Part shown: positions 6,014 to 26,474 of the stretch, in pieces | How the letters are laid out: every line of letters starts with the position of its first letter | How positions within the stretch are numbered: the first letter of the stretch is position 1 | Source: Deltaproteobacteria bacterium | GTDB lineage: Bacteria; Desulfobacterota; DSM-4660; Desulfatiglandales; Desulfatiglandaceae | Direction: 5' to 3' | Length of the DNA: 39,261 nucleotides | NCBI GenBank assembly: GCA_019307945.1 | Contig: JAFDIS010000025.1 | Coordinates: forward strand, 1-39,261 | The notes under the pieces: generated by a model | Database searches by the model: none | What the model was told of the DNA's origin: nothing | Seen by the model: only the letters and a program-made list of their open reading frames with translations | Position numbers and translations under genes: made by a program

Positions 6014-7975
6014 ATGAGGTACGCTGAGACAGGGTTTAACTTGGAAATCGATTTATCCCGCGGAAGCATAGAGCGGGTGGAGACCGATCCGCGGGACACG
6101 GAACTCTATTTGGGGGGACTTGGAACGAACACCAAGATCTTGTGGGACCGCGTTCCGCCTGAAGTCGAACCCTTTTCCCCTGACAATCTCCTTATATTCA
6201 GCGCAGGCCTCCTGTGCGGCACACCCGCCATCGGATGCAATCGTACAATTGTCTCCACCATTTCGCCCCAGACCCTGTTGATGGCCTTTTCCATGATGGG
6301 CGGCTTTTGGGCGCCGGAATTGAAATATGCCGGATATGACAAGATCATTTTCCGGGGCAAATCGCCGGACCTGGTCTATTTGTGGATTCACAACGACCAG
6401 GTGGAAATCCGCGATGCATCCCACCTGGCGGGCAAAGGCGCCATTGAAACCGCCGAACTGATCAAACAGGAATTGCAGGAGCCCAGGGCCCAGGTGGCGG
6501 CCATCGGGCTCGCCGGGGAGAACAGGGTATATTTTGCGTCCATCGAGCAGGGAAGGTCCAGTGCCAGCCGGGGCGGGATCGGCGCGGTCATGGGGGATAA
6601 AGGGATCAAGGCCATCGCTGTCCGGGGTACCAGGGACATCAACGTCGCGCGGCCCGATGAATACATGGAACTCTGCAATGAGGTGATGGATTACATCAAG
6701 TGGCGCAATGAGCATCCCATCCCCGGCGTCATGCCCATCCTGGCGGGCCTGGGCTCCCCGCAGGAGATGGCTGTGCACGACGAGAAGTGGCACACTGAGA
6801 ATTTCATGTGGGGGAACTCCCGTCTTCGGAGAAAGGGCTTCTGGAACGAAGAGATCGAAAAGCAATGGACGCAGACCCTGGAAAGCGCCCGGAAGCGGCT
6901 CATCAGTTGCTACAACTGCCCCATGAAATGCGGGGCGACCCTCACCCTGCCCGGTCTCCCCACCTATATGATGAAATGCTTCTCCAAACTGACCTACACC
7001 ATGGCGGCCATGTCGGATCTGGAGTTCGGGTTGAGAATCGCTCAGAGGGCCACGGAATACGGAGTGGACGGCTACTCGACCCCGCAGGTGATGGCCTTTG
7101 CCGTGGAGCTGTACGAAGACGGCATCCTGACGGACGAGGATATGCCCGGATTTCCAGCGGACAATGAGGAGCGGTTCTACTGGCTGCTCGACAAGATCGT
7201 GCGGCGCGAGGGGATCGGGAACGTCCTGGCCGACGGCACCTATTGGGCGGCCAAGACGATAGGCAAGGGCGCGGAAGAATATGCCCATAATACAATCAAG
7301 AAACATGAACAACTTCCTCTCAAGCTCTCCATGTTGAACCCCATCTACTTCCTGATGTATTCCACGGGGGAGAAGATCAACATCACTCAGATCGAAGGCC
7401 AGTTTCCCCAGGCCCCCTTCCCCAAGAGGGAGCAGCGGGAGGAGTTCGTGAAGGACTGGTTTCAGGTCCCCGATGATCGATTCAAACAATACTTCCTGGA
7501 CTGGGAGCCGCGGGGTGAAAAGTCCATCCCCTTCTATCCCACACCCCGGATGTGTTGTGACATCGTGGACTGGCAGGAAAGAATGCATTACATCGACGAC
7601 GCCCTCGGCATGTGCGCGGGCCTGTCTTCCTTTCCCCTGAAACCGCCCTACCACATCCATAATTATCCCAAATTCATCTCCGCCGGGGCCGGGATCGACA
7701 TGGATGAGGAAAAACTGACCCAGGCCACCAAGAGGTATCGCACCCTGGTGAGGGCCGTCAACATCAGGCGGGGCATGAGGCGAAAAGACGAAAAGCCCCC
7801 CCAGGACCACTGGAAAAAGCGGTTTCCGGAACTCGAAAAGGAACTCCTGGACACCTACTACGAATACAAAGGCTGGAACGAGGAGGGTATTCCCACCAAA
7901 GAGACCCTGAACGCACTGGACCTGGATTACGTGGCTGAAGACTTCATCGGGAGGGGCATCCTGAAGGACGAGTAG
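6014..7975 (+). CDS. bamB: Class II benzoyl-CoA reductase catalytic subunit BamB (tungsten, AOR family)
   Basis: A 653-aa protein of the aldehyde:ferredoxin oxidoreductase family that closely follows BamB as I remember it from Geobacter metallireducens, including the N-terminal MRYAETGF and YLGGLGTNTKILWD stretches. BamB reduces benzoyl-CoA to a cyclic dienoyl-CoA at a tungsten-bispterin site in the cytoplasm. Visible features: the N-terminal tungstopterin domain (about 1-210); the [4Fe-4S] ligands C299-x2-C302-x3-C306 in SCYNCPMKC, with the fourth expected at C514/C515 (MCCDIVDW); and a conserved VHDEKWHTENF stretch near the active site. Start supported by AAGGGG six bases before ATG. It is the first gene of bamBCDEFGHI, behind a repressible-looking promoter. 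Other AOR enzymes are the alternative, but the downstream gene set argues for BamB. Confidence 0.93.
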   Translation: MRYAETGFNLEIDLSRGSIERVETDPRDTELYLGGLGTNTKILWDRVPPEVEPFSPDNLLIFSAGLLCGTPAIGCNRTIVSTISPQTLLMAFSMMGGFWAPELKYAGYDKIIFRGKSPDLVYLWIHNDQVEIRDASHLAGKGAIETAELIKQELQEPRAQVAAIGLAGENRVYFASIEQGRSSASRGGIGAVMGDKGIKAIAVRGTRDINVARPDEYMELCNEVMDYIKWRNEHPIPGVMPILAGLGSPQEMAVHDEKWHTENFMWGNSRLRRKGFWNEEIEKQWTQTLESARKRLISCYNCPMKCGATLTLPGLPTYMMKCFSKLTYTMAAMSDLEFGLRIAQRATEYGVDGYSTPQVMAFAVELYEDGILTDEDMPGFPADNEERFYWLLDKIVRREGIGNVLADGTYWAAKTIGKGAEEYAHNTIKKHEQLPLKLSMLNPIYFLMYSTGEKINITQIEGQFPQAPFPKREQREEFVKDWFQVPDDRFKQYFLDWEPRGEKSIPFYPTPRMCCDIVDWQERMHYIDDALGMCAGLSSFPLKPPYHIHNYPKFISAGAGIDMDEEKLTQATKRYRTLVRAVNIRRGMRRKDEKPPQDHWKKRFPELEKELLDTYYEYKGWNEEGIPTKETLNALDLDYVAEDFIGRGILKDE

Positions 7976-8045
7976 CAGGGACCTTCCGAAAAGACCTCGG
8001 CGTTAAAAAAAGTTAAGGAATTAGGATGAAAAGGTGGTAGCCGCG

Positions 8046-8579
8046 ATGGGTGAAAAAACAAAGAAGGTCATCAAGACGATCAAAGTGGATGTGGACAAAT
8101 GCAACGGTTGCCGTGCCTGTGAAGTCGTCTGTTCCGCATTTCACGCCACTCCCAAATACAGCAGCAACAACCCTGGAAGGGCCCGCATTCGCGTGCTTCA
8201 TGACCCGCTGAGAGACATCTATGTGCCCGTGTATGCGGGGGAATATGTCGCAGCCGAGTGTATGGGCAGGGACAAATATGTGATCGACGGAAAGGAATAT
8301 GAAGAATGCGCCTTCTGTCGCGCCTCCTGCCCTTCCAGAGACGCATTCAAGGAACCCGATTCGGGCCTCCCGTTGAAGTGCGACATGTGTGAAGGAGAAG
8401 AAGAACCCCTGTGTGTGAAATGGTGCCTGGCCGACGCCCTGACCTATGAGGAGCGGGAAGAAGAAATAGAAGAGCAGGAAGAAATAGAGGAACTGGAGAT
8501 CGGTCTGGAGGCCCTGGCGGAGAAATTCGGCCTGGACAAGATCATGGACACCGTTGTGCGCATGTCGAATAAAGAGTAA
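8046..8579 (+). CDS. bamC: BamC, multi-cluster ferredoxin subunit
   Basis: A 177-aa iron-sulfur protein (ATG 8046; an in-frame GTG at 8034 is the alternative, and the AAGGTGG at 8031-8037 fits the ATG better). Cysteine groups: CNGCRACEVVC near the N-terminus, CAFCRASC in the middle, then CDMC and CVKWC. This is the DmsB/HybA-type arrangement with about three [4Fe-4S] clusters. The last ~50 residues are highly acidic and helical (EEREEEIEEQEEIEE). In class II benzoyl-CoA reductase BamC binds BamB and carries electrons to its single cluster. It lies 70 bases after bamB. Confidence 0.88.
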   Translation: MGEKTKKVIKTIKVDVDKCNGCRACEVVCSAFHATPKYSSNNPGRARIRVLHDPLRDIYVPVYAGEYVAAECMGRDKYVIDGKEYEECAFCRASCPSRDAFKEPDSGLPLKCDMCEGEEEPLCVKWCLADALTYEEREEEIEEQEEIEELEIGLEALAEKFGLDKIMDTVVRMSNKE

Positions 8580-8613
8580 CGAACCAAACCGATGAAGAGG
8601 CCTTGAGAAAACA

Positions 8614-9765
8614 GTGGAGACGGCAGTTCCGTACAAAGAGATCATCGATGTCATCAAGGAGAGCGGCGGGGAGGCCTTCAAGAGATGCTTTCAATGCGGC
8701 CTCTGTGATGTGGTTTGCCCGTGGAACAGGGTCAGGTCCTTCAGTATGCGCAAGATCGTGCGGGAGGCCACTTTCGGTCTGACGGAGATCGAAAGCGAAG
8801 ACATCTGGCGTTGCACCACGTGCGGCAGGTGCCCCCAGCACTGCCCGCGGGATGTGAGGCAGATCGAATCCGGTGTGGCGCTACGCAGGATCGCCACGGA
8901 GTACGGGGTATTCCCCCCCTCGGTCAAGCCCGTGCGCACAGCCAGCGCCAGCCTGGTGGGCGAAGGGAACCCGCTTAGCGAAGAGAGGAAGAACCGTGCG
9001 AACTGGGCTGAAGGTCTTTCCGTCAAGACCTTCAACGAGGAGATGGAAATCCTCTATTTCCCGGGCTGCTACCCCTGCTACGACCCCAGACTCAAGAAGG
9101 TCGCTCGAGCCACCTCAAGTATCCTGAACAAGGCGGGAGTGGATTTCGGAATTCTGGGTACCAAGGAGAACTGTTGCGGAGAAAGCATTCGCAAGACGGG
9201 CGAGGAGGATCTGTTCCGGCGCCTGGCCAGGGAAAACATCAAGACCTTCATCGAAAACGGCGTAAAAAAGATCCTGGTCTCATCTCCTCATTGCTATCAC
9301 ACCTTCAAGAATGAATACCCCGAATTCATGGTGCACTTCGAGGTGCTGCACCTGACCCAGTACCTGGCGGAACTCATCCGCGAAGGAAGGCTTCGGCTCA
9401 CCAAGGAATACGGAAAAAAGGTCACTTACCATGATCCATGCTACCTGGGACGTCACAACGGCATATTCGAGGAACCCAGGGCCGTTCTGCTGCAGATCCC
9501 CGGGCTGGAACTGGAAGAGATGCCCGATTCCCTGGCCGACAGTCTCTGCTGCGGGGGAGGAGGAGGCAGGATCTGGATGGAAACACCGAAAGGGGAGAGA
9601 TTTTCCGACCTGAGGCTGGAACAGGCCATGGGTGTCGGCGCGGAGGTGCTGGTGACATCCTGCCCCTATTGTATATCCAACTTCGAGGACAGCCGAATCA
9701 CGCTGGATATAACGGAAAACTTTGAAATCAAGGACATCACCGAGGTCGTGGAAGAGGTGATCTAG
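8614..9765 (+). CDS. bamD: BamD, HdrD-like CCG-domain iron-sulfur subunit
   Basis: A 383-aa protein with an HdrC-like N-terminus and an HdrB-like C-terminus, as in HdrD/GlpC-type proteins. Two [4Fe-4S] motifs are present: C25-x2-C28-x2-C31-x3-C35 (CFQCGLCDVVCP) and CTTCGRCPQHCP. Two CCG motifs follow at C187-C188 (ENCCGE) and C312-C313 (SLCCGGGG), which in heterodisulfide reductase hold noncubane [4Fe-4S] clusters. In the Bam complex it is thought to bridge the HdrA-like BamE and the BamBC core. Start is GTG 8614 (GAAGAGG 13 bases upstream); no better in-frame ATG is near. It lies 34 bases after bamC. Confidence 0.9.
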   Translation: METAVPYKEIIDVIKESGGEAFKRCFQCGLCDVVCPWNRVRSFSMRKIVREATFGLTEIESEDIWRCTTCGRCPQHCPRDVRQIESGVALRRIATEYGVFPPSVKPVRTASASLVGEGNPLSEERKNRANWAEGLSVKTFNEEMEILYFPGCYPCYDPRLKKVARATSSILNKAGVDFGILGTKENCCGESIRKTGEEDLFRRLARENIKTFIENGVKKILVSSPHCYHTFKNEYPEFMVHFEVLHLTQYLAELIREGRLRLTKEYGKKVTYHDPCYLGRHNGIFEEPRAVLLQIPGLELEEMPDSLADSLCCGGGGGRIWMETPKGERFSDLRLEQAMGVGAEVLVTSCPYCISNFEDSRITLDITENFEIKDITEVVEEVI

Positions 9766-9830
9766 GGTAACGGCGAGCCCGGGCGGAACAAGCGGCGCGG
9801 GCATATGAACGCTGAAGAGGTGATGGAAAA

Positions 9831-12800
9831 GTGGATAAGGAACGATCGGTGAAAGAGGGGGTTTTGCAGCTTCCCGCTGAATCCGGGATGGCCGGTTTCG
9901 GGGACGTCATGGTGGTGGGGGGCGGTATCAGCGGCATTCAGGCATCACTGGACCTTGCCGCCTCCGGGTTCAAGGTCTACCTGGTGGAAAGGGCACCCGC
10001 CATCGGCGGCCACATGGCCCAGCTGGACAAGACTTACCCGACCAACGACTGCTCCATGTGAATTCTCTCGCCGAAACTGGTCGAGGTCGGCCGGCATCCC
10101 AACATCGAGGTTCTGACTTATACGGAAGTGGACGGCGTAGAGGGCGAAGCGGGAGACTTCAAGGTCCGTCTGATCAGAAAACCCCGGTACGTCATCGAGG
10201 ACAAATGCACGGGCTGCGGCACTTGCGTCCAGTACTGCCCGGTGGAGTACCCAGATCAATTCAACCAGGAGATCTCCAAGAACAAGGCGGTTCACATCTA
10301 CTTTGCCCAGGCCATCCCGCTGATCTCCTATATTGATGAGAGCTGCCTGTATCTCAAAGAAAAAAAATGCCGTATATGCGAAGGGGTTTGTCAGAATGAG
10401 GCCATAGATTTTCGACAGAAAGAGGAAAGAATCGAGATCAAGGTAGGAGCGATCCTCCTGTCGGCAGGCTACGAGGTCTTCGACCCCAAGATCAAAGGCG
10501 ACTATGGTTACGGAAAACTGGCCAACGTGGTGACCAGCCTCGATTTCGAACGACTCCTGTGCGCCACAGGGCCCTATGAAGGGCAGATATTGCGTGCCTC
10601 GGACAAGAAACACCCCCGGAAGATCGCATGGATCCAGTGTGTGGGTTCCAGGAGGGTGACGCCGGGAGACAACAGTTACTGCTCCGCAGTTTGCTGCACC
10701 TATACCCAGAAACAGGTGATCCTCACCAAAGATCATATCCCTGAGGCCGAGTGCACTATTTTTCACAATGACATCCGATCCTACGGCAAGGATTTCGAAC
10801 CCTATTTCCAGCGGACCCGGGACCTGCCGGGCACCAGGTTCATCAGGAGCTACGTATCCGTCGCCGGAGAAAACCCCGAGACGAAAAACGTCATTATCAG
10901 ATATGCCACGCCCGATGAGGGGGTCAAGGAGGAGGAATTCGAGCTGGTGGTCCTCTCGGTGGGGCTGAACCCTCCTGCGGGGCATGACGAACTGTCCCAA
11001 AAGCTCGGAGTCGATCTCAACGCGCACGGATTCTGCAAGACCCCGCCCTCTAATCCCATGGAGACATCCAAGGCCGGCGTGTTCGTCAGCGGCGCCTTTC
11101 AGGGCCCCATGGATATCCCGGAGTCGGTCTTCACCGCCAGCGCAGCGGTCTCCCAGTGCGGGGAATTCCTCGACTATCGACGCGGAAAACTCACCAGGGA
11201 GAGGCTTTATGAGACGGAAAGGGATGTCTCGGGACAAGAGCCGCGCATCGGTGTCTTCGTATGCCACTGCGGGGCCAATATCGGGAGGGTGGTGGACGTA
11301 CCCTCCGTGGTCGAATATTCCTTGACCCTCCCCAATGTGGTGCACGCCCAGGAACAGCTCTTTTCCTGTGCCACCAATTCCGCCAAGGAAATCACGGACA
11401 CCATCAGGGAAAAGGGTCTCAACCGTGTCGTGGTGGCCGCCTGCTCGCCGCGGACCCTGGAGCCCCTGTTCCGGGACACCCTCAGGGAAGCCGGTCTGAA
11501 CCAATACTTCTATGACATGGCCAATATCCGGGAGCACAACTCCTGGGTGCACTCCAAGGAACCGGAGGACGCCACCCAAAAGGCCAAGGACATCACCCGG
11601 ATGTCGGTGGCGAGGGTTCGACATCTCGCACCTCTGGAGGAAATCGAACTGCCGGTCAACAAGACCGCCCTGGTGGTGGGAGGGGGACTGGCCGGCATGA
11701 CATGCGCCCTGAGCCTGGCCCGGCAGGGGTTTGAGGTTCACCTGCTGGAAAAGGAAAAAGAACTGGGGGGCACGGCACGAAGGATTCATCACACGCTGGA
11801 AGGCATGGACGTTCAAGCCTATTTGCGCGACCTCATCGACAAGGTCTATCGACATCCCCTGATTCACGTGTCGCATGAAGCCGTGATCACCGAGGTCTCG
11901 GGCTATATCGGAAACTTCACCACCACCGTCAAATGCGAGGGTGGGGTGAAACGAATCAACCATGGTGCGGCGGTCATCGCCACGGGTGCGGAGGAATACA
12001 AGCCCACGGAATACCTCTACGGTGAAGACGAGCGTGTCCTGACACAGTTGGAGCTTGAGGAGAGGATCGCTGAGAATGAAGAAGAGCTGATCAACGCCCG
12101 GAGCCTAGTGATGATCCAGTGCGTGGGCTGCAGGCAGGAGGGCCGAAACTACTGCGCCCGGGTCTGCTGCAGCCAGGCGGTCAAGAACGCCCTGAAACTC
12201 AAGGAACTCAACCCCCTGATGGATATCTACATCCTATTCCGGGACATGAGGACATACGGCTTCAAAGAGGACTATTATCGGGAGGCTTCGGAAAGGGAAG
12301 TGAAGTTCATCCGGTATGAGCCGGATGACAAACCCCGGGTGGAGCCCGCCGAGGAAGAGGGAAGGCCCGTCTTGCGGGTGACCGCCACGGACCCGATCCT
12401 GGGAAAGAGGCTTGCCCTGGATGCGGACTTTCTCGCGCTGTCGGCCGCCGTGATTCCATCGGCCGAGAGCAAGGAGATATCCCAGTTGTTCAAGGTTTCC
12501 CTGGGGCCCGACGGTTTCTTCAAAGAGGCTCACGTAAAGCTGAGACCTGTAGATTTCGCCACGGACGGGGTCTTCCTTTGCGGGATGGCACACTACCCCA
12601 AGCATATCTCGGAAACCATCAACCAGGCCTACGGTGCTGCGGGTCGAACCGCGGCCCTTCTCTCCCAGGATTCGGTCACCGCCTCGGGCGCGGTTTGTGA
12701 GGTGAACGAAGACGCCTGTGTGTCGTGCGGGGCCTGCATCACGGCGTGCACTTACGGCGCCGTGGAGTTTCGGGAAACAGCCCGCGGCAGGAAGGCCTGG

Positions 12801-12968
12801 GTAAACCCCATCCTGTGTAAGGGAGACGGGGTGTGTAACGCCAAGTGTCCCACTAACGCCATTTACCTGAAGCATTTCACGGATGAAGAAATTTTCAGCC
12901 AGATTGACGCGGCCGTCCCGGAAGAAGAAATCATTGAGCCGCCCAAGGCGGCCGTGGGAGCTGCGTAG
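9831..12968 (+). CDS. bamE: BamE, HdrA-like flavoprotein with selenocysteine at an in-frame TGA
   Basis: One 1045-aa gene read through TGA 10059-10061 (Sec77). The TGA falls at the Cys of the HdrA motif NDCSM-C-ILSPKLVE, and the frame is open and homologous on both sides. Two FAD-binding Rossmann modules are visible: VVGGGISGIQASLDLA (near 29) and VVGGGLAGMTCALSLA (around 615). Between them are CTGCGTCVQYCP and other Cys-rich stretches, and near the C-terminus two ferredoxin motifs. The last reads C996-x2-D999-x2-C1002-x3-C1006, with Asp in place of the second Cys. HdrA proteins carry out flavin-based electron bifurcation; in Bam this would drive benzoyl-CoA reduction. Start is GTG 9831 after GAAGAGG. 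Needs the Sec machinery (selA/B/C/D), not seen here. Confidence 0.92.
10070..10091 (+). promoter_or_regulatory. SECIS-like hairpin after the bamE TGA
   Basis: Nine bases after the TGA the mRNA can form GCCG-(AA bulge)-ACT, loop GGTCGA, GGT-CGGC. An apical GGUC about 18 bases after UGA resembles the E. coli fdhF SECIS. The second hdrA has almost the same element (33179-33200). The fold was made by eye. Confidence 0.55.
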
Positions 12969-13024
12969 ATAATTCACGCACCGGACAGCAAGGCCGGTGC
13001 TCTTGAGATGAGAGGGGAAAAGGA

Positions 13025-13792
13025 ATGAGTGCGGCAATTCAGTTCAAGCCGAGGATCTTGGGCTTCGTCTGCCACTGGTGAGCATACGGCGCCGCTGATA
13101 TGGCTGGAGTTTCCAGGCTACAATATAGAACAGACATAAGGTTGATTCGCGTCATGTGTTCGGGGAGGGTCGACCTGGGCTTCGTGCTTCGCGCCTTTTC
13201 CAACGGAATGGACGGCGTGTTCGTGGGCGGCTGTCGCCTCGGGGAGTGCAATTACATCACCCACGGAAACTACGACGCCCTGGCCATGGTCTACCTGGCC
13301 AAGAAAATCCTTGAACACTCGGGGGTGGACCCGGAAAGGCTGAGGATCGAATTCATGTCTTCCGGTGAAGGCATCCTTTTCACCCAGGTGGTCAATGATT
13401 TCGGAAACAGGGTAAAGGAACTGGGGCCCTTGGGCGCCAGTGAAGGCCTGGAGCCTGATACTCTGCGATTCAGATTGGAAGCGGCTCGAAAACTGGTCCC
13501 ATATATCAAGCTGGTGGAGAGGGAACGACTCAGGTTGCCCGTTAAGTCTGAAAAGGCCTATCGGGAATTCTTTACAAGCGATGAGTTTCACCGGCTGTTC
13601 GATGAATTGATCGCAGACAAACTGGCCATCAGCCAGATCGTGTCCCTTCTGGGAGAAACCCCTCTTTCCACGGGGGAAATCGCACATACTCTGGACCTCA
13701 ATCCTTCCGAGGTGGCACGGTACGTGGAAAGCTCATCCAGGCAGGGACTGGTCCGGTTCGACCAGGAAAATAAGCGTTTCGTACTCGCCTGA
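13025..13792 (+). CDS. bamF: BamF, MvhD-like subunit with selenocysteine at an in-frame TGA
   Basis: A 255-aa gene read through TGA 13079-13081 (Sec19). The context is C16-H-W-U19-A-Y-G-A-A-D-M-A-G, matching the MvhD motif CxWCxYxGADxAG. The further ligands of the [2Fe-2S] cluster are seen in VMCSGR and GGCRLGEC. The MvhD domain covers about 1-135. The C-terminal ~60 residues (LSTGEIAHTLDLNPSEVARY) look like a winged helix. MvhD links a hydrogenase or dehydrogenase to HdrA; here it should link the NuoEFG-like BamGHI to BamE. ATG 13025 is preceded by AGAGGGGAAAAGG. A short hairpin CTGGA-GTT-TCCAG at 13104-13116, 23 bases after the TGA, may serve as SECIS. Without readthrough the N-terminal cluster ligands would be lost. 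Confidence 0.9.
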
Positions 13793-13851
13793 AATGTCGG
13801 GCTAACGGAAAAGCAGATCGCGTGACAGGGAGGAAGAGCAGGACGGCGGCT

Positions 13852-14304
13852 ATGGATACCGAAAAAATCGACAGGATCATCGGCAAACATGACAGCGAGG
13901 CAAGTTCCCTGATTCAGGTGTTGCTGGAGATTCAGAGCGAATACCACTGGCTCCCGAAGGAGGCACTGGAGCGCGTCAGCGAGAGGCTTCAGGTGCCACT
14001 GGCCCGGATCATGCATATTGCAACCTTTTATAAAGCCTTCAGCCTGGTTCCCAAGGGGCGTCATGAAATCCATATTTGCATGGGCACCGCCTGTCATGTG
14101 CGCGGCGCCCCCCGCGTACTGGACGCCGTGCAGGATCTCATCGGGATCAAACCCGGGGAGACGGACCTGGACCTGAAGTTCAGCCTGGAGACGGTCAATT
14201 GCCTCGGGTGCTGCGCCCTCGGGCCGGTGGTGGAGATCGACGGAAAGACTCATGGGAAGATGAGCCCTTCGGATACCGCTGAAGTGCTCAAAAACTACGA
14301 TTAG
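13852..14304 (+). CDS. bamG: BamG, NuoE-like [2Fe-2S] subunit
   Basis: A 150-aa thioredoxin-fold [2Fe-2S] protein of the NuoE/HndA family. After a helical N-terminus (QSEYHWLPKEALERV), the ligands are C-x4-C in CMGTACHVRGA and C-x3-C in NCLGCCALGP. With BamH and BamI it resembles the NADH-dehydrogenase module of complex I and of bifurcating hydrogenases. ATG 13852 gives the usual family length. GTG 13822 in the same frame is the alternative, since the nearest purine-rich stretch (AGGGAGGAAG, 13826-13835) is between the two. It lies 59 bases after bamF and 9 before bamH. Confidence 0.88.
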   Translation: MDTEKIDRIIGKHDSEASSLIQVLLEIQSEYHWLPKEALERVSERLQVPLARIMHIATFYKAFSLVPKGRHEIHICMGTACHVRGAPRVLDAVQDLIGIKPGETDLDLKFSLETVNCLGCCALGPVVEIDGKTHGKMSPSDTAEVLKNYD

Positions 14305-14313
14305 GAAAATATT

Positions 14314-16239
14314 ATGCCGCGGATCAATTCACCCGCTGAACTGGAAGCTTTCAGGGAGGGTCTTCTCTCGCAAAGGGACCCCAACAAGCCGTGCATCACA
14401 CTTTGCTCCGGCTCCGCCTGCCACGCCTCAGGCAGCGCCGAGGTCGGGGCGCGTATCGAAGAGGAAGTCCGAAAACAGGGACTGAGCGAGGAAGTGATTA
14501 TCCGGAAGACGGGATGCCACGGATTCTGCGAAAGGGGACCCATCGTCGTCATCCACCCGGAAGGGATCTGCTACTTCCAGGTCAAGGCCGAGGATGTTCC
14601 AGACATCATCTCCCGAACGATCAAGGAAAAGCAGATCGTGGATCGCCTGCTCTACGAGGATCCAGACACCAGCGAAAAAATCATTTATGAGTCGGAAATT
14701 CCCTTCTACAAGAATCAGGAACGACTCGTTTTCGGATCCAACGGGAACATCGATCCCAAGAGCATTGACGACTACCTGGCCATCGGGGGGTACGCCGCCC
14801 TCGCTAGGGCCCTCGAATGGGGCCCTGAAAAGGTCGTGGAGGAGATCAAGAAATCCAACCTCCGTGGAAGAGGGGGCGGAGGGTTTCCCGCAGGGCGAAA
14901 GTGGGAAGGATCACGCAACGCACCCGAGGAGATCAAGTACGTAATCGTCAACGCGGATGAGGGAGATCCCGGCGCTTACATGGATCGGAGTCTGCTGGAA
15001 GGCAATCCGCACGCGATTCTTGAAGGATTGACCATCGGGGCCTGGGCCATCGGTTCCCATGAGGGGTACATCTACGTCCGCCAGGAATACCCTCTGGCGG
15101 TGGAGAACATCACCATCGCGATTGAGAAGGCCGAGGAATACGGCTTACTGGGGAAAAACATCCTCGGCTCGGGCTTTGACTTCACCGTGAAAGTTCACCG
15201 GGGGGCCGGGGCCTTCGTCTGCGGAGAATCAACGGCCCTGATGACGGCGCTGGAAGGCAGGGCAGGGGAGCCCCGGCCCAAGTATATCCGCTCCAACATC
15301 AAGGGACTATGGGAAAGACCCAGCGTTCTCAATAACGTGGAGACCTGGGCCAATGTGCCCCTGATCATCAACAAAGGGGCTGATTGGTTCACGCAGTTCG
15401 GGACGGAACGAAGCAAAGGGACCAAGATCTTCTCCCTTGTGGGAAAAATCACCAATACCGGCCTCGTGGAAGTGCCCATGGGCACGACACTGCGAGACAT
15501 CATCTACAAGATCGGCGGCGGCATCCCCGGCGGAAAGCGCTTCAAGGCGGTCCAGACCGGTGGGCCGTCGGGCGGCTGCCTCCCCGAGGAACTGTTGGAT
15601 CTGCAAGTGGGCTTTGATGAGCTGACCCAGGCGGGCTCCATGATGGGCTCGGGCGGCATGATCGTCATGGATGAAGACACCTGCATGGTGGATGTGGCCC
15701 GCTACTTCCTCGATTTTCTCACGGACGAGTCCTGCGGCAAATGCGTCCCCTGCCGTGAAGGAATGCGGCAGATGCTAAAAATCCTAACGAACATCACCCA
15801 GGGCAAAGGGAAAGAAGGCGATATCCAGCTCCTGGAAGAGCTGGCCGAAGTGACCTCCGAGGCCTCGCTCTGCGCACTGGGAAAAAGCGCTCCGAATCCC
15901 TTGTTGAGCACCCTGCGCCATTTCAGAGAAGAGTACGAGGCCCATATAAAAGAGAAGCGCTGTCCGGCCCTCTCATGCAAGGAATTGATCGCCTACTACA
16001 TTGATCCCGAAAAATGCAAGGCATGCATGATATGCCTGCGCAAATGCCCGGCGGATGCCATCGAGGGCGGCAAGAAGCTGATCCATGTAATCGACCAGAA
16101 AAAGTGCACGAAATGCGGGACGTGCTTTGAATCCTGCCCTCCCCGGTTCAGCGCCGTGCGGAAGATCTCCGGGGAGCCTGTTCCACCGCCCATACCCGAG
16201 GAACAGAGAACCATCGCCGGAAAGAGCAAAGAAAAATGA
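14314..16239 (+). CDS. bamH: BamH, NuoF-like flavoprotein with extra ferredoxin domains
   Basis: A 641-aa protein. Order of domains: an N-terminal thioredoxin-like [2Fe-2S] domain (CSGSACHASGS and KTGCHGFCERG, to about residue 90); FMN/NADH-binding core with GRGGGGFPAG (about 185-194) and NADEGDPGAYMDR (about 212-224); SLBB region; [4Fe-4S] motif ESCGKCVPCREG (about 470); and a C-terminal pair of [4Fe-4S] motifs CKACMICLRKCP and CTKCGTCFESCP. This is the layout of HndC/HoxF-type subunits of bifurcating enzymes. It probably exchanges electrons with NAD(H) through FMN (family knowledge); whether NAD(H) or another carrier is used in Bam cannot be read here. It overlaps bamI by 4 bases (ATGA), a sign of translational coupling. 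Confidence 0.9.
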   Translation: MPRINSPAELEAFREGLLSQRDPNKPCITLCSGSACHASGSAEVGARIEEEVRKQGLSEEVIIRKTGCHGFCERGPIVVIHPEGICYFQVKAEDVPDIISRTIKEKQIVDRLLYEDPDTSEKIIYESEIPFYKNQERLVFGSNGNIDPKSIDDYLAIGGYAALARALEWGPEKVVEEIKKSNLRGRGGGGFPAGRKWEGSRNAPEEIKYVIVNADEGDPGAYMDRSLLEGNPHAILEGLTIGAWAIGSHEGYIYVRQEYPLAVENITIAIEKAEEYGLLGKNILGSGFDFTVKVHRGAGAFVCGESTALMTALEGRAGEPRPKYIRSNIKGLWERPSVLNNVETWANVPLIINKGADWFTQFGTERSKGTKIFSLVGKITNTGLVEVPMGTTLRDIIYKIGGGIPGGKRFKAVQTGGPSGGCLPEELLDLQVGFDELTQAGSMMGSGGMIVMDEDTCMVDVARYFLDFLTDESCGKCVPCREGMRQMLKILTNITQGKGKEGDIQLLEELAEVTSEASLCALGKSAPNPLLSTLRHFREEYEAHIKEKRCPALSCKELIAYYIDPEKCKACMICLRKCPADAIEGGKKLIHVIDQKKCTKCGTCFESCPPRFSAVRKISGEPVPPPIPEEQRTIAGKSKEK

Positions 16240-16826
16240 GCGGAATCCTTTTGCAGATAGATGGAAGACAGGTCGAAGCGGAAGAAGGGATGACTCTCCT
16301 GGAAGCGGCCCGGAAGGAGGGGATCCATATCCCCACACTCTGTCACCACGACAAATTGGAGCCTTACGGCGCCTGCCGGATCTGCATCGTGGAGGTGGAA
16401 GATAGCGGCAGGACGAAACTCGTTGTCTCGTGCGTCTACCCTGTGGAAGAGGGCCTGATCGTCAGAACGAGATCAGAGAAGATAGACAGGATACGAAAAA
16501 TGATCCTGGAACTCCTGCTGGCCCACGCCCCCGATGCCTTTGGGTTGCAGGATCTGGCCCGCGAGTACGGGGCGGACAGGAACCGTTTCGAGAAAGAGGC
16601 CTCCTTTTGCATCCACTGCGGCCTCTGCGTAAGGTACTGTGCCGAAGTAAAGAAAAAACACGCTGTCGGCTTCGTGGATCGAGGAATCAGGCGGGAAATC
16701 TGCTTTGTCCCCGAAGTGGCAGCCAAGGAATGCTGGGATTGCAAGGAATGTTTTCCCCTCTGTCCCACCGAGGCGCTCCAGGCGGCTTTCGTCCTGGTGG
16801 AGGCGTTTACGGGGGAAAAAACTTGA
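16236..16826 (+). CDS. bamI: BamI, short NuoG-like iron-sulfur subunit
   Basis: A 196-aa protein corresponding only to the N-terminal electron-transfer part of NuoG, with no molybdopterin domain. The [2Fe-2S] ligands appear in CHHDKLEPYGACRIC and a later Cys (VSCVYP). Two [4Fe-4S] motifs follow: CIHCGLCVRYC and CWDCKECFPLCP. It begins in the ATGA overlap with bamH and is the last gene of the operon. The following gene (mnmA) is convergent, with 77 bases between and no clear hairpin terminator. Confidence 0.88.
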   Translation: MSGILLQIDGRQVEAEEGMTLLEAARKEGIHIPTLCHHDKLEPYGACRICIVEVEDSGRTKLVVSCVYPVEEGLIVRTRSEKIDRIRKMILELLLAHAPDAFGLQDLAREYGADRNRFEKEASFCIHCGLCVRYCAEVKKKHAVGFVDRGIRREICFVPEVAAKECWDCKECFPLCPTEALQAAFVLVEAFTGEKT

Positions 16827-24727: not shown

Positions 24728-25756
24728 ATGAATCAGATGGATCGAAGATGTTTTTTGAGACTTTCCGGAATGCTGGGGGTAGGTCTGGCCGTCGGTGGTC
24801 TAGTCCCCGCGGGGGCGGAGGCCGTAAAATTCGACCGCAGACGATTCAAGGTATCCGAGACGCGGCTGACAATGGGGACTTTCGTCTCGATGACGTTGAT
24901 TCACGACTCCAGGGACAGAGCCGAAAAAGCCATGGGCCGTGCGTTCGAAGAAATCGAACGGCTCACCCGCCTTTTCAACCGCTTCGACGAAACTACCGCC
25001 CTGGGGCTCCTGAACCGGGAAGGCCTCCTGCGGGATGTACCTCCCGAGGTGGAGGAGGTGGTCAGGGAAGGCCTCCGCTACCATCGGATCTCCGGCGGCA
25101 GATTCGACATCTCGGTCAAGCCGGTAGTGGATCTTTTCCGCGAACGCTTCGCCGGCGGCGGCACCCCACCCGATCCTGCGGAAATGAATCGGGCCCTGGC
25201 CCTGGTAGGCTCCGACAAAATCCGAGTGGAAAACGGCCGCATCCGCTTCCTGAAACCCGGGATGGGAATCACGCTGGACGGGATCGCCAAGGGCTACATC
25301 GTTGACAGGGCCTCCCAAGTCCTCGCCGAACGCGGCATCGACAATCACTTGATCAACGCAGGGGGTGACATCCGCACCCGCGGCGCCAGGGCGGATGGAA
25401 AGCCGTGGGCCGTGGCGGTCCAGGATCCCGAAAAAAGAGCGCACTACCCCGCGGTTGTGCACATGAGCAACGGTGCGGTGGCCACCTCGGGAGACTACGA
25501 GGTCTATTTTGACCGCGAAAAGATGTTTCACCACATCGTGAACCCAAAAACCGGCCTGTCACCCCACCACAGCAGCAGCGTCACGGTGCTGGCCCCCACC
25601 GCGATGCGCGCCGACGCCTTGTCCACCAGCGTCTTCGTCATGCCCCCGCGACGGGGAGCGGCTTTCGTGGACCGTCTGCCGATATGCGAATGTCTTATCC
25701 TCACCCACCGCGGGAACAGGATCCGTTCCGCAGGTTGGGCCCGGAAGACCACATAG
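24728..25756 (+). CDS. apbE: FAD:protein FMN transferase, Tat-exported
   Basis: A 342-aa ApbE that attaches FMN covalently to Thr/Ser of Rnf/Nqr-type and other flavoproteins. The N-terminus carries a twin-arginine signal (DRRCFLRLSG followed by a hydrophobic segment and AGAEA), so it should act outside the cytoplasmic membrane. Family motifs: TRLFNRFDETT, ISGGRFDISVKPVVDLF, GITLDGIAKGYIVD, INAGGDIRTRG, VATSGDYEVYF and HHIVNPKTGLSP. Ribosome site GGTGGAGG seven bases before ATG. No flavinylation target lies in the window. The 3' end overlaps the convergent hflX remnant by 56 bases. It is 188 bases after the YbhN-type gene; a short palindrome (24570-24583) in that gap has no evident role. Confidence 0.93.
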   Translation: MNQMDRRCFLRLSGMLGVGLAVGGLVPAGAEAVKFDRRRFKVSETRLTMGTFVSMTLIHDSRDRAEKAMGRAFEEIERLTRLFNRFDETTALGLLNREGLLRDVPPEVEEVVREGLRYHRISGGRFDISVKPVVDLFRERFAGGGTPPDPAEMNRALALVGSDKIRVENGRIRFLKPGMGITLDGIAKGYIVDRASQVLAERGIDNHLINAGGDIRTRGARADGKPWAVAVQDPEKRAHYPAVVHMSNGAVATSGDYEVYFDREKMFHHIVNPKTGLSPHHSSSVTVLAPTAMRADALSTSVFVMPPRRGAAFVDRLPICECLILTHRGNRIRSAGWARKTT

Positions 25757-26474
25757 CCGATCCGATTCGTTCCACAAGTACGTTGAGTGTGGGAGGGTGA
25801 ACGGCCGAGACGGCCAGCCCTCCCATTATTTTTTCCATCCTCTTCGCCTCGCCCGGCCCCAGCAGGTCGGTCTTGTTCAGTACCAGAAGGACAGGGGTCT
25901 CCTGCAGACCAAGCCTTTGAAGAACGCCCTGCACGGTCTCCACCTGCTCCTGCATTTCGGGGCTGGAAGCATCCACCACATGGAGTAGGAGATCCGCATC
26001 ATGAAGTTCCTCCAGAGTGGCCGCAAAGGCCTCCATGAGGCTTTCAGGGAGGTCCCGGATGAAACCCACGGTGTCCGTGATGATGGCCTCTCGTTCCCTG
26101 GGGAAACGTAGACGCCTGCTGCTGGGATCCAGTGTGTCGAAGAGCCGGTTTTGCGCCTCCACCCGGGAATGGGTGAGGGCATTGAGCAGCGTGGATTTTC
26201 CGGCATTCGTGTATCCCACGAGCACGTAGGCCACCTCCCCTTTGCGCGTCACCAGGAGACCCACCTACCGTTTGATTTCCCGGGAGACGGCGCAGATCTG
26301 TCGCACCACTTCCCTGGAAACGATTTCATGGGGAGGTATACGGCGGCGATACAGGTATTGCAGTCTCATGTGCTGGCTTGCTTTAAGGCCGCCCGTCTTG
26401 CCGTGTATGCGGTCGATCTTACAAGACCTCGACACACAGGGTTTTGCGTGGTTCGCCGGCCTGCCGGATCCCAT
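25701..26474 (-). pseudogene. hflX: hflX pseudogene: amber codon plus internal deletion
   Basis: A ribosome-associated GTPase gene in decay. The reading frame runs from ATG 26474 (seven bases from the dnaB stop codon) to 25701 as 258 codons, interrupted by TAG at 26265-26267 where relatives have Gln (SREIKR-stop-VGLLVTRKG). The first part is the HflX N-terminal domain (KIDRIHGKTGGLKASQ, YRRRIPPHEIVS). Then VAYVLVG jumps straight into YTNAGKSTLLNALTHS, the G1 motif. The rest of the N-domain and the GPGE/coiled-coil segment, roughly 200 or more residues, are missing. The G domain itself is intact (DTVGFIRDLP, NKTDLL). The join is in frame at a stretch common to both sides, so deletion between short repeats is likely. 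Internal initiation could still make the G domain. Confidence 0.82.

Follow-up and report, generated by a model that had tools for sequence, protein, structure and literature searches.

A single-copy hflX gene behind dnaB has probably been inactivated recently in a Desulfatiglandaceae genome

The window analysed here is a stretch of 39,261 nucleotides from a Deltaproteobacteria bacterium of the family Desulfatiglandaceae (assembly GCA_019307945.1, contig JAFDIS010000025.1, positions 1 to 39,261). Downstream of dnaB it carries the remnant of an hflX gene, the features of which are collected in Table 1. The minus-strand translation from 26474 to 25701 is a single frame that starts at ATG 26474 and runs to the final TGA, with a single internal stop, whereas nothing comparable is seen in the plus-strand frame over 25701-26474. 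This agrees with the first-pass annotation of the DNA, which had described one frame of 258 codons from the ATG behind dnaB, broken only by the TAG. The coding frame is thus not uninterrupted, as it would be in a functional HflX, and the longest standard reading frame at the locus, from GTG 26264, has 187 codons. The apbE gene is convergent with the remnant and overlaps it by 56 bp.

Table 1. Features of the hflX remnant (window positions)
Feature	Position	Strand	Remarks
Long-form hflX remnant	25701..26474	-	257 codons + TGA; downstream of dnaB; order as in relatives
In-frame TAG, codon 70	26265..26267	-	column invariant in 15/15 relatives
GTG codon 71, restart candidate of the first-pass annotation	26262..26264	-	poor ribosome-binding site
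Retained N-terminal extension of long-form HflX, codons 19-87	26214..26420	-	broken by TAG
GGAGGTG, Shine-Dalgarno-like	26232..26238	-	6 nt before GTG 26225
GTG codon 84, candidate internal start	26223..26225	-	174-residue G-domain protein (predicted)
Deletion junction at Val-Gly	26214..26219	-	315 codons (945 bp) missing vs relatives
HflX G domain, intact, with natural C-terminus	25704..26216	-	profile, column and structure-chain comparisons

The best family match of the remnant is TIGR03156 (GTPase HflX; E=1.7e-56), but it covers model positions 192-349 only, and the score of 191.7 bits is below the curated cut-off of 216.75. A Pfam search of the remnant matched the G domain alone. In this domain the remnant resembles known HflX proteins: it has HflX-type motifs (GYTNAGKST, DTVGF, NKTD and SA, which we take to be the HflX G-domain motifs) and aligns to the solved HflX chains 7yla, 5ady, 8vio and 2qtf. 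It differs from them in lacking model positions 1-189, which comprise the N-terminal and middle domains. The corresponding Pfam domains of a functional HflX, PF13167 and PF16360, are absent from the remnant, and both are present in the two intact relatives scanned. In one relative, G021, with an HflX of 551 residues, the model spans residues 191-539, with PF13167 at 207-294, PF16360 at 296-374 and the G domain at 382-500, and residues 1-190 form an extension that precedes the HflX model. The remnant keeps about 68 recognisable residues of this lineage-typical extension, joined at a shared Val-Gly to the G domain. The residues that had been assigned to the N-domain in the first-pass annotation therefore belong, according to the domain map of G021, to the extension, and the HflX N-domain proper is wholly gone.

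The extension of about 190 residues in long HflX had no Pfam match in the two relatives scanned (for example at L021:1465-3117, minus strand), yet conservation across relatives is good over the first 68 residues. An N-terminal extension is also described for mycobacterial HflX in the available text of PMC12493154. It measures 39-58 residues there, against about 190 in G021.

The HflX search took in 61 genomes, the one studied here and 60 relatives. All 61 gave some match, other GTPases counted, and 51 scored above the cut-off; the genome studied here scored below it. From the relatives, 33 loci were fetched (17, then 16). Wherever dnaB was contained in them (23 of 23), it was followed directly by hflX on the same strand, and an apbE relative lay convergent beside hflX in 15 of the 33. 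At the dnaB locus, the hflX of the relatives is intact and about 520-595 codons long. As the remnant locus shares this gene order, the remnant is the same gene, and the relatives possess its intact orthologue. Remnant and long-form HflX have the locus, the extension and the C-terminus in common; the remnant differs by the missing 315 codons and the one TAG. Five loci encode a shorter HflX (about 423-450 codons) and have none of the neighbours of the dnaB locus. Genomes of the family seem to have one of two forms, a long HflX beside dnaB or a shorter one without these neighbours, and none has both among the matches listed.

The size of the deletion was measured between two Val-Gly sites in 18 relatives, with G005 left out. 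It is in frame and amounts to exactly 315 codons in comparison with 16 of the 18, to 314 in comparison with G006 and to 316 in comparison with G027. The in-frame internal deletion that had been proposed from the sequence is therefore borne out. The junction also lies at a shared stretch, as suggested, but the common stretch is only Val-Gly and not the longer VAYVLVG; at the nucleotide level, the two sites have 2-8 nt in common in the 18 relatives.

Conservation of the short form in many genomes, which the first-pass annotation had considered as evidence against decay, was not observed. Among the matches listed, the 45 other family genomes searched show no such fusion, and for the listed matches of all 46 family genomes a conserved short form can be ruled out. 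Partial hflX matches in G036, G061, G025, G010, G002, G038 and G028, all of which were fetched, lie at contig ends. In G031, hflX is split over two frames near a contig end, and dnaB and hflX are merged in one frame of 726 codons; this draft is 63% complete, and we attribute the split to sequencing error. No clear hflX was seen among the matches listed for five family genomes (G004, G014, G022, G023 and G062). As dnaB is also without a match in G014 and G004, these two drafts probably do not include the hflX locus. G023, G022 and G062 have dnaB but no clear hflX among the matches listed, and are 92%, 71% and 89% complete, respectively. Repeated loss of hflX within the family is not supported.

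The genome studied here is a draft of 4,161,424 bases in 185 contigs, with a completeness of 98.5%. Neither PF16360 nor PF13167 has a match anywhere in it, and 14 of 14 control genomes were positive for each. The TIGR03156 profile finds the hflX locus with 190 bits, followed by seven matches of at most 46 bits; the best of these is far under the cut-off and confined to the G domain. The absence of the two domains and the low score of the best match elsewhere rule out a second hflX. The intact second copy that the first-pass annotation had proposed to look for was thus not found in the 98.5% complete genome, and no other functional copy accompanies the remnant.

The remaining codons show no sign of relaxed selection. 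In the G domain, the window differs from the relatives at 1 of 65 columns that are invariant in 16 of them; in leave-one-out counts for this domain, relatives have 0-2 mismatches and the window has 1. In the N-terminal part, 18 columns are invariant in 15 relatives, and the TAG is the sole difference, the other 17 being unchanged. Pooled and with the TAG column excluded, this makes 1 mismatch in 82 invariant columns. The G domain is thus otherwise intact, as had been noted from the sequence, both by its TIGR03156 match and by its retention of all invariant residues but one. The remnant of the extension is 54-74% identical to the 9 relatives compared. When identity was regressed on dnaB identity, the mean residuals of the window were +0.012 for the G domain and +0.028 for the N-terminal part, within the spread of the relatives; 9 of the 16 relatives were used, since the dnaB filter caught 10, one of them without the N-terminal part. 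The 1 mismatch in 82 columns places a one-sided 95% limit of about 2.6% per site on neutral divergence since release from selection, on the assumption that these columns are strictly constrained. A scan of the sequence collection for close relatives returned distant HflX only (best segments 43-67% identical, best 80 kept), too distant to help date the break.

With no excess of changes in the remaining codons, either the break happened recently or the G domain remains in use. The N-terminal part, which would lie outside any restart product, is as clean as the G domain, and this favours recency over retained function. The earlier suggestion that decay may be recent is supported by the same column counts.

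The product of hflX frees stalled ribosomes. HflX splits 70S ribosomes, and truncations at its N-terminus abolish interaction with 70S and with the subunits, according to the available text of PMC4770234, which cites earlier work for the latter. According to the available text of PMC12493154, it is the N-terminal domain that touches H69 and extends to the peptidyl transferase centre. As these contacts are made by the N-terminal domain in known HflX, products of the remnant, which would be without the N-terminal and middle domains, should neither bind nor split ribosomes. In all likelihood, the hflX gene is a recently inactivated, single-copy (unitary) pseudogene. The first-pass annotation had likewise read it as an hflX pseudogene that combines an amber codon with an in-frame deletion. 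Directly behind dnaB, the ancestor would have had the long HflX of the family, with extension, N-domain, middle domain and G domain. A single event then presumably deleted 945 bp between the two Val-Gly sites, which would have had few bases in common, probably through replication slippage or end joining. The 2-8 nt that the sites share make a short-homology deletion plausible, judged from the relatives and not from the ancestral sequence. The stop codon would have arisen, either earlier or later than the deletion, in the N-terminal part that is still present.

The main alternative to complete loss is that translation restarts at GTG 26225 after the TAG and continues to supply a free G domain with a residual or new role, for example to bind or hydrolyse GTP without splitting ribosomes. 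Among the in-frame ATG, GTG and TTG codons, this one has the best upstream match, a GGAGGTG at 6 nt spacing, exactly at the G-domain boundary. It is a better candidate than the GTG right after the TAG, where the restart had been placed earlier and which is preceded by a mere GGA at 13 nt. The G domain is intact and unrelaxed with one invariant lost, as a functional remnant would show. Moreover, according to the available text of PMC4932445, residues 171-426 of E. coli HflX, its C-terminal half, were purified on their own and were active in autophosphorylation, and GTP binding and hydrolysis were observed for the S211A mutant of this half. However, 2 of 18 intact relatives have a GGAGGT at this position too, and the motif arises from conserved Lys-Gly-Glu-Val codons, so that a new adaptation is improbable. 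Upstream of the restart, the N-terminal part shows just as little relaxation (0 mismatches in 17 invariant columns), which is what recency by itself would predict, and the case would be that of one genome. We consider a surviving free G domain quite unlikely. The more specific reading that the 945-bp deletion turned a ribosome-splitting factor into a stand-alone GTPase of 174 residues, translated from GTG 26225 behind an already existing Shine-Dalgarno sequence by coupling to the short TAG-ended upstream frame, finds little support and is very unlikely.

It could also be argued that the lesions are assembly or sequencing artefacts and that the real genome has an intact hflX, as it is available only as a draft in 185 contigs. 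Against this, there are two separate lesions, the deletion leaves the reading frame unshifted, and no contig contains the lost domains. In the relatives, moreover, the two sites share a repeat of just 2-8 nt, too short for collapse by a k-mer assembler, and an artefact appears highly improbable, though the lesions may belong to one variant within the population. Finally, the frame is open on either side of the TAG, and decoding of this codon by pyrrolysine or a suppressor tRNA would give a short HflX fusion of 257 residues. The best PylS match in the genome has 24.6 bits against a cut-off of 178.15 (13 of 14 control genomes also give a match, one of them above the cut-off), and a CUA anticodon is found in none of its 42 tRNA genes (anticodons typed as 30 + 10 + 2), searched with a general model that a pyrrolysine tRNA could escape. 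The check for pyl genes that the first-pass annotation had advised thus points to UAG being very probably a stop codon. Stops of 30 frames picked within the window are distributed as 8 TAG, 17 TGA and 5 TAA, and the ribosome-binding domains would be missing even with readthrough. Decoding of the TAG is therefore extremely improbable.

A literature search on HflX with pseudogene made no such case evident from titles or abstract openings. The unitary pseudogene described here means that the sole HflX would have been lost in one lineage, while most family genomes with a readable locus keep theirs. It also calls for caution with annotation pipelines, which would call a 187-residue 'GTPase HflX' at the remnant. 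Apart from these two points, it is ordinary gene decay.

Elsewhere in the window, two HdrA-like frames, at 9888-12968 (plus strand) and 33475-30359 (minus strand), each contain an in-frame TGA after TNDC(S/A)M, with a conserved SPKLVEVGRH following the TGA. From these motifs, the two seem to encode HdrA proteins with selenocysteine. Each gene is split by a standard ORF caller, and the genome has a match to tRNA-Sec (73 bits, at C24:21751-21844). A run of eight genes at 6014-16826 (plus strand) starts with an aldehyde-ferredoxin-oxidoreductase-like gene, followed by a gene for a protein without NCBIfam match and by HdrD/TfrB-like, HdrA-like, VhuD-like, NuoE-like, NuoF-like and NuoG-like genes, in an order reminiscent of the class II benzoyl-CoA reductase (BamB-I) cluster.
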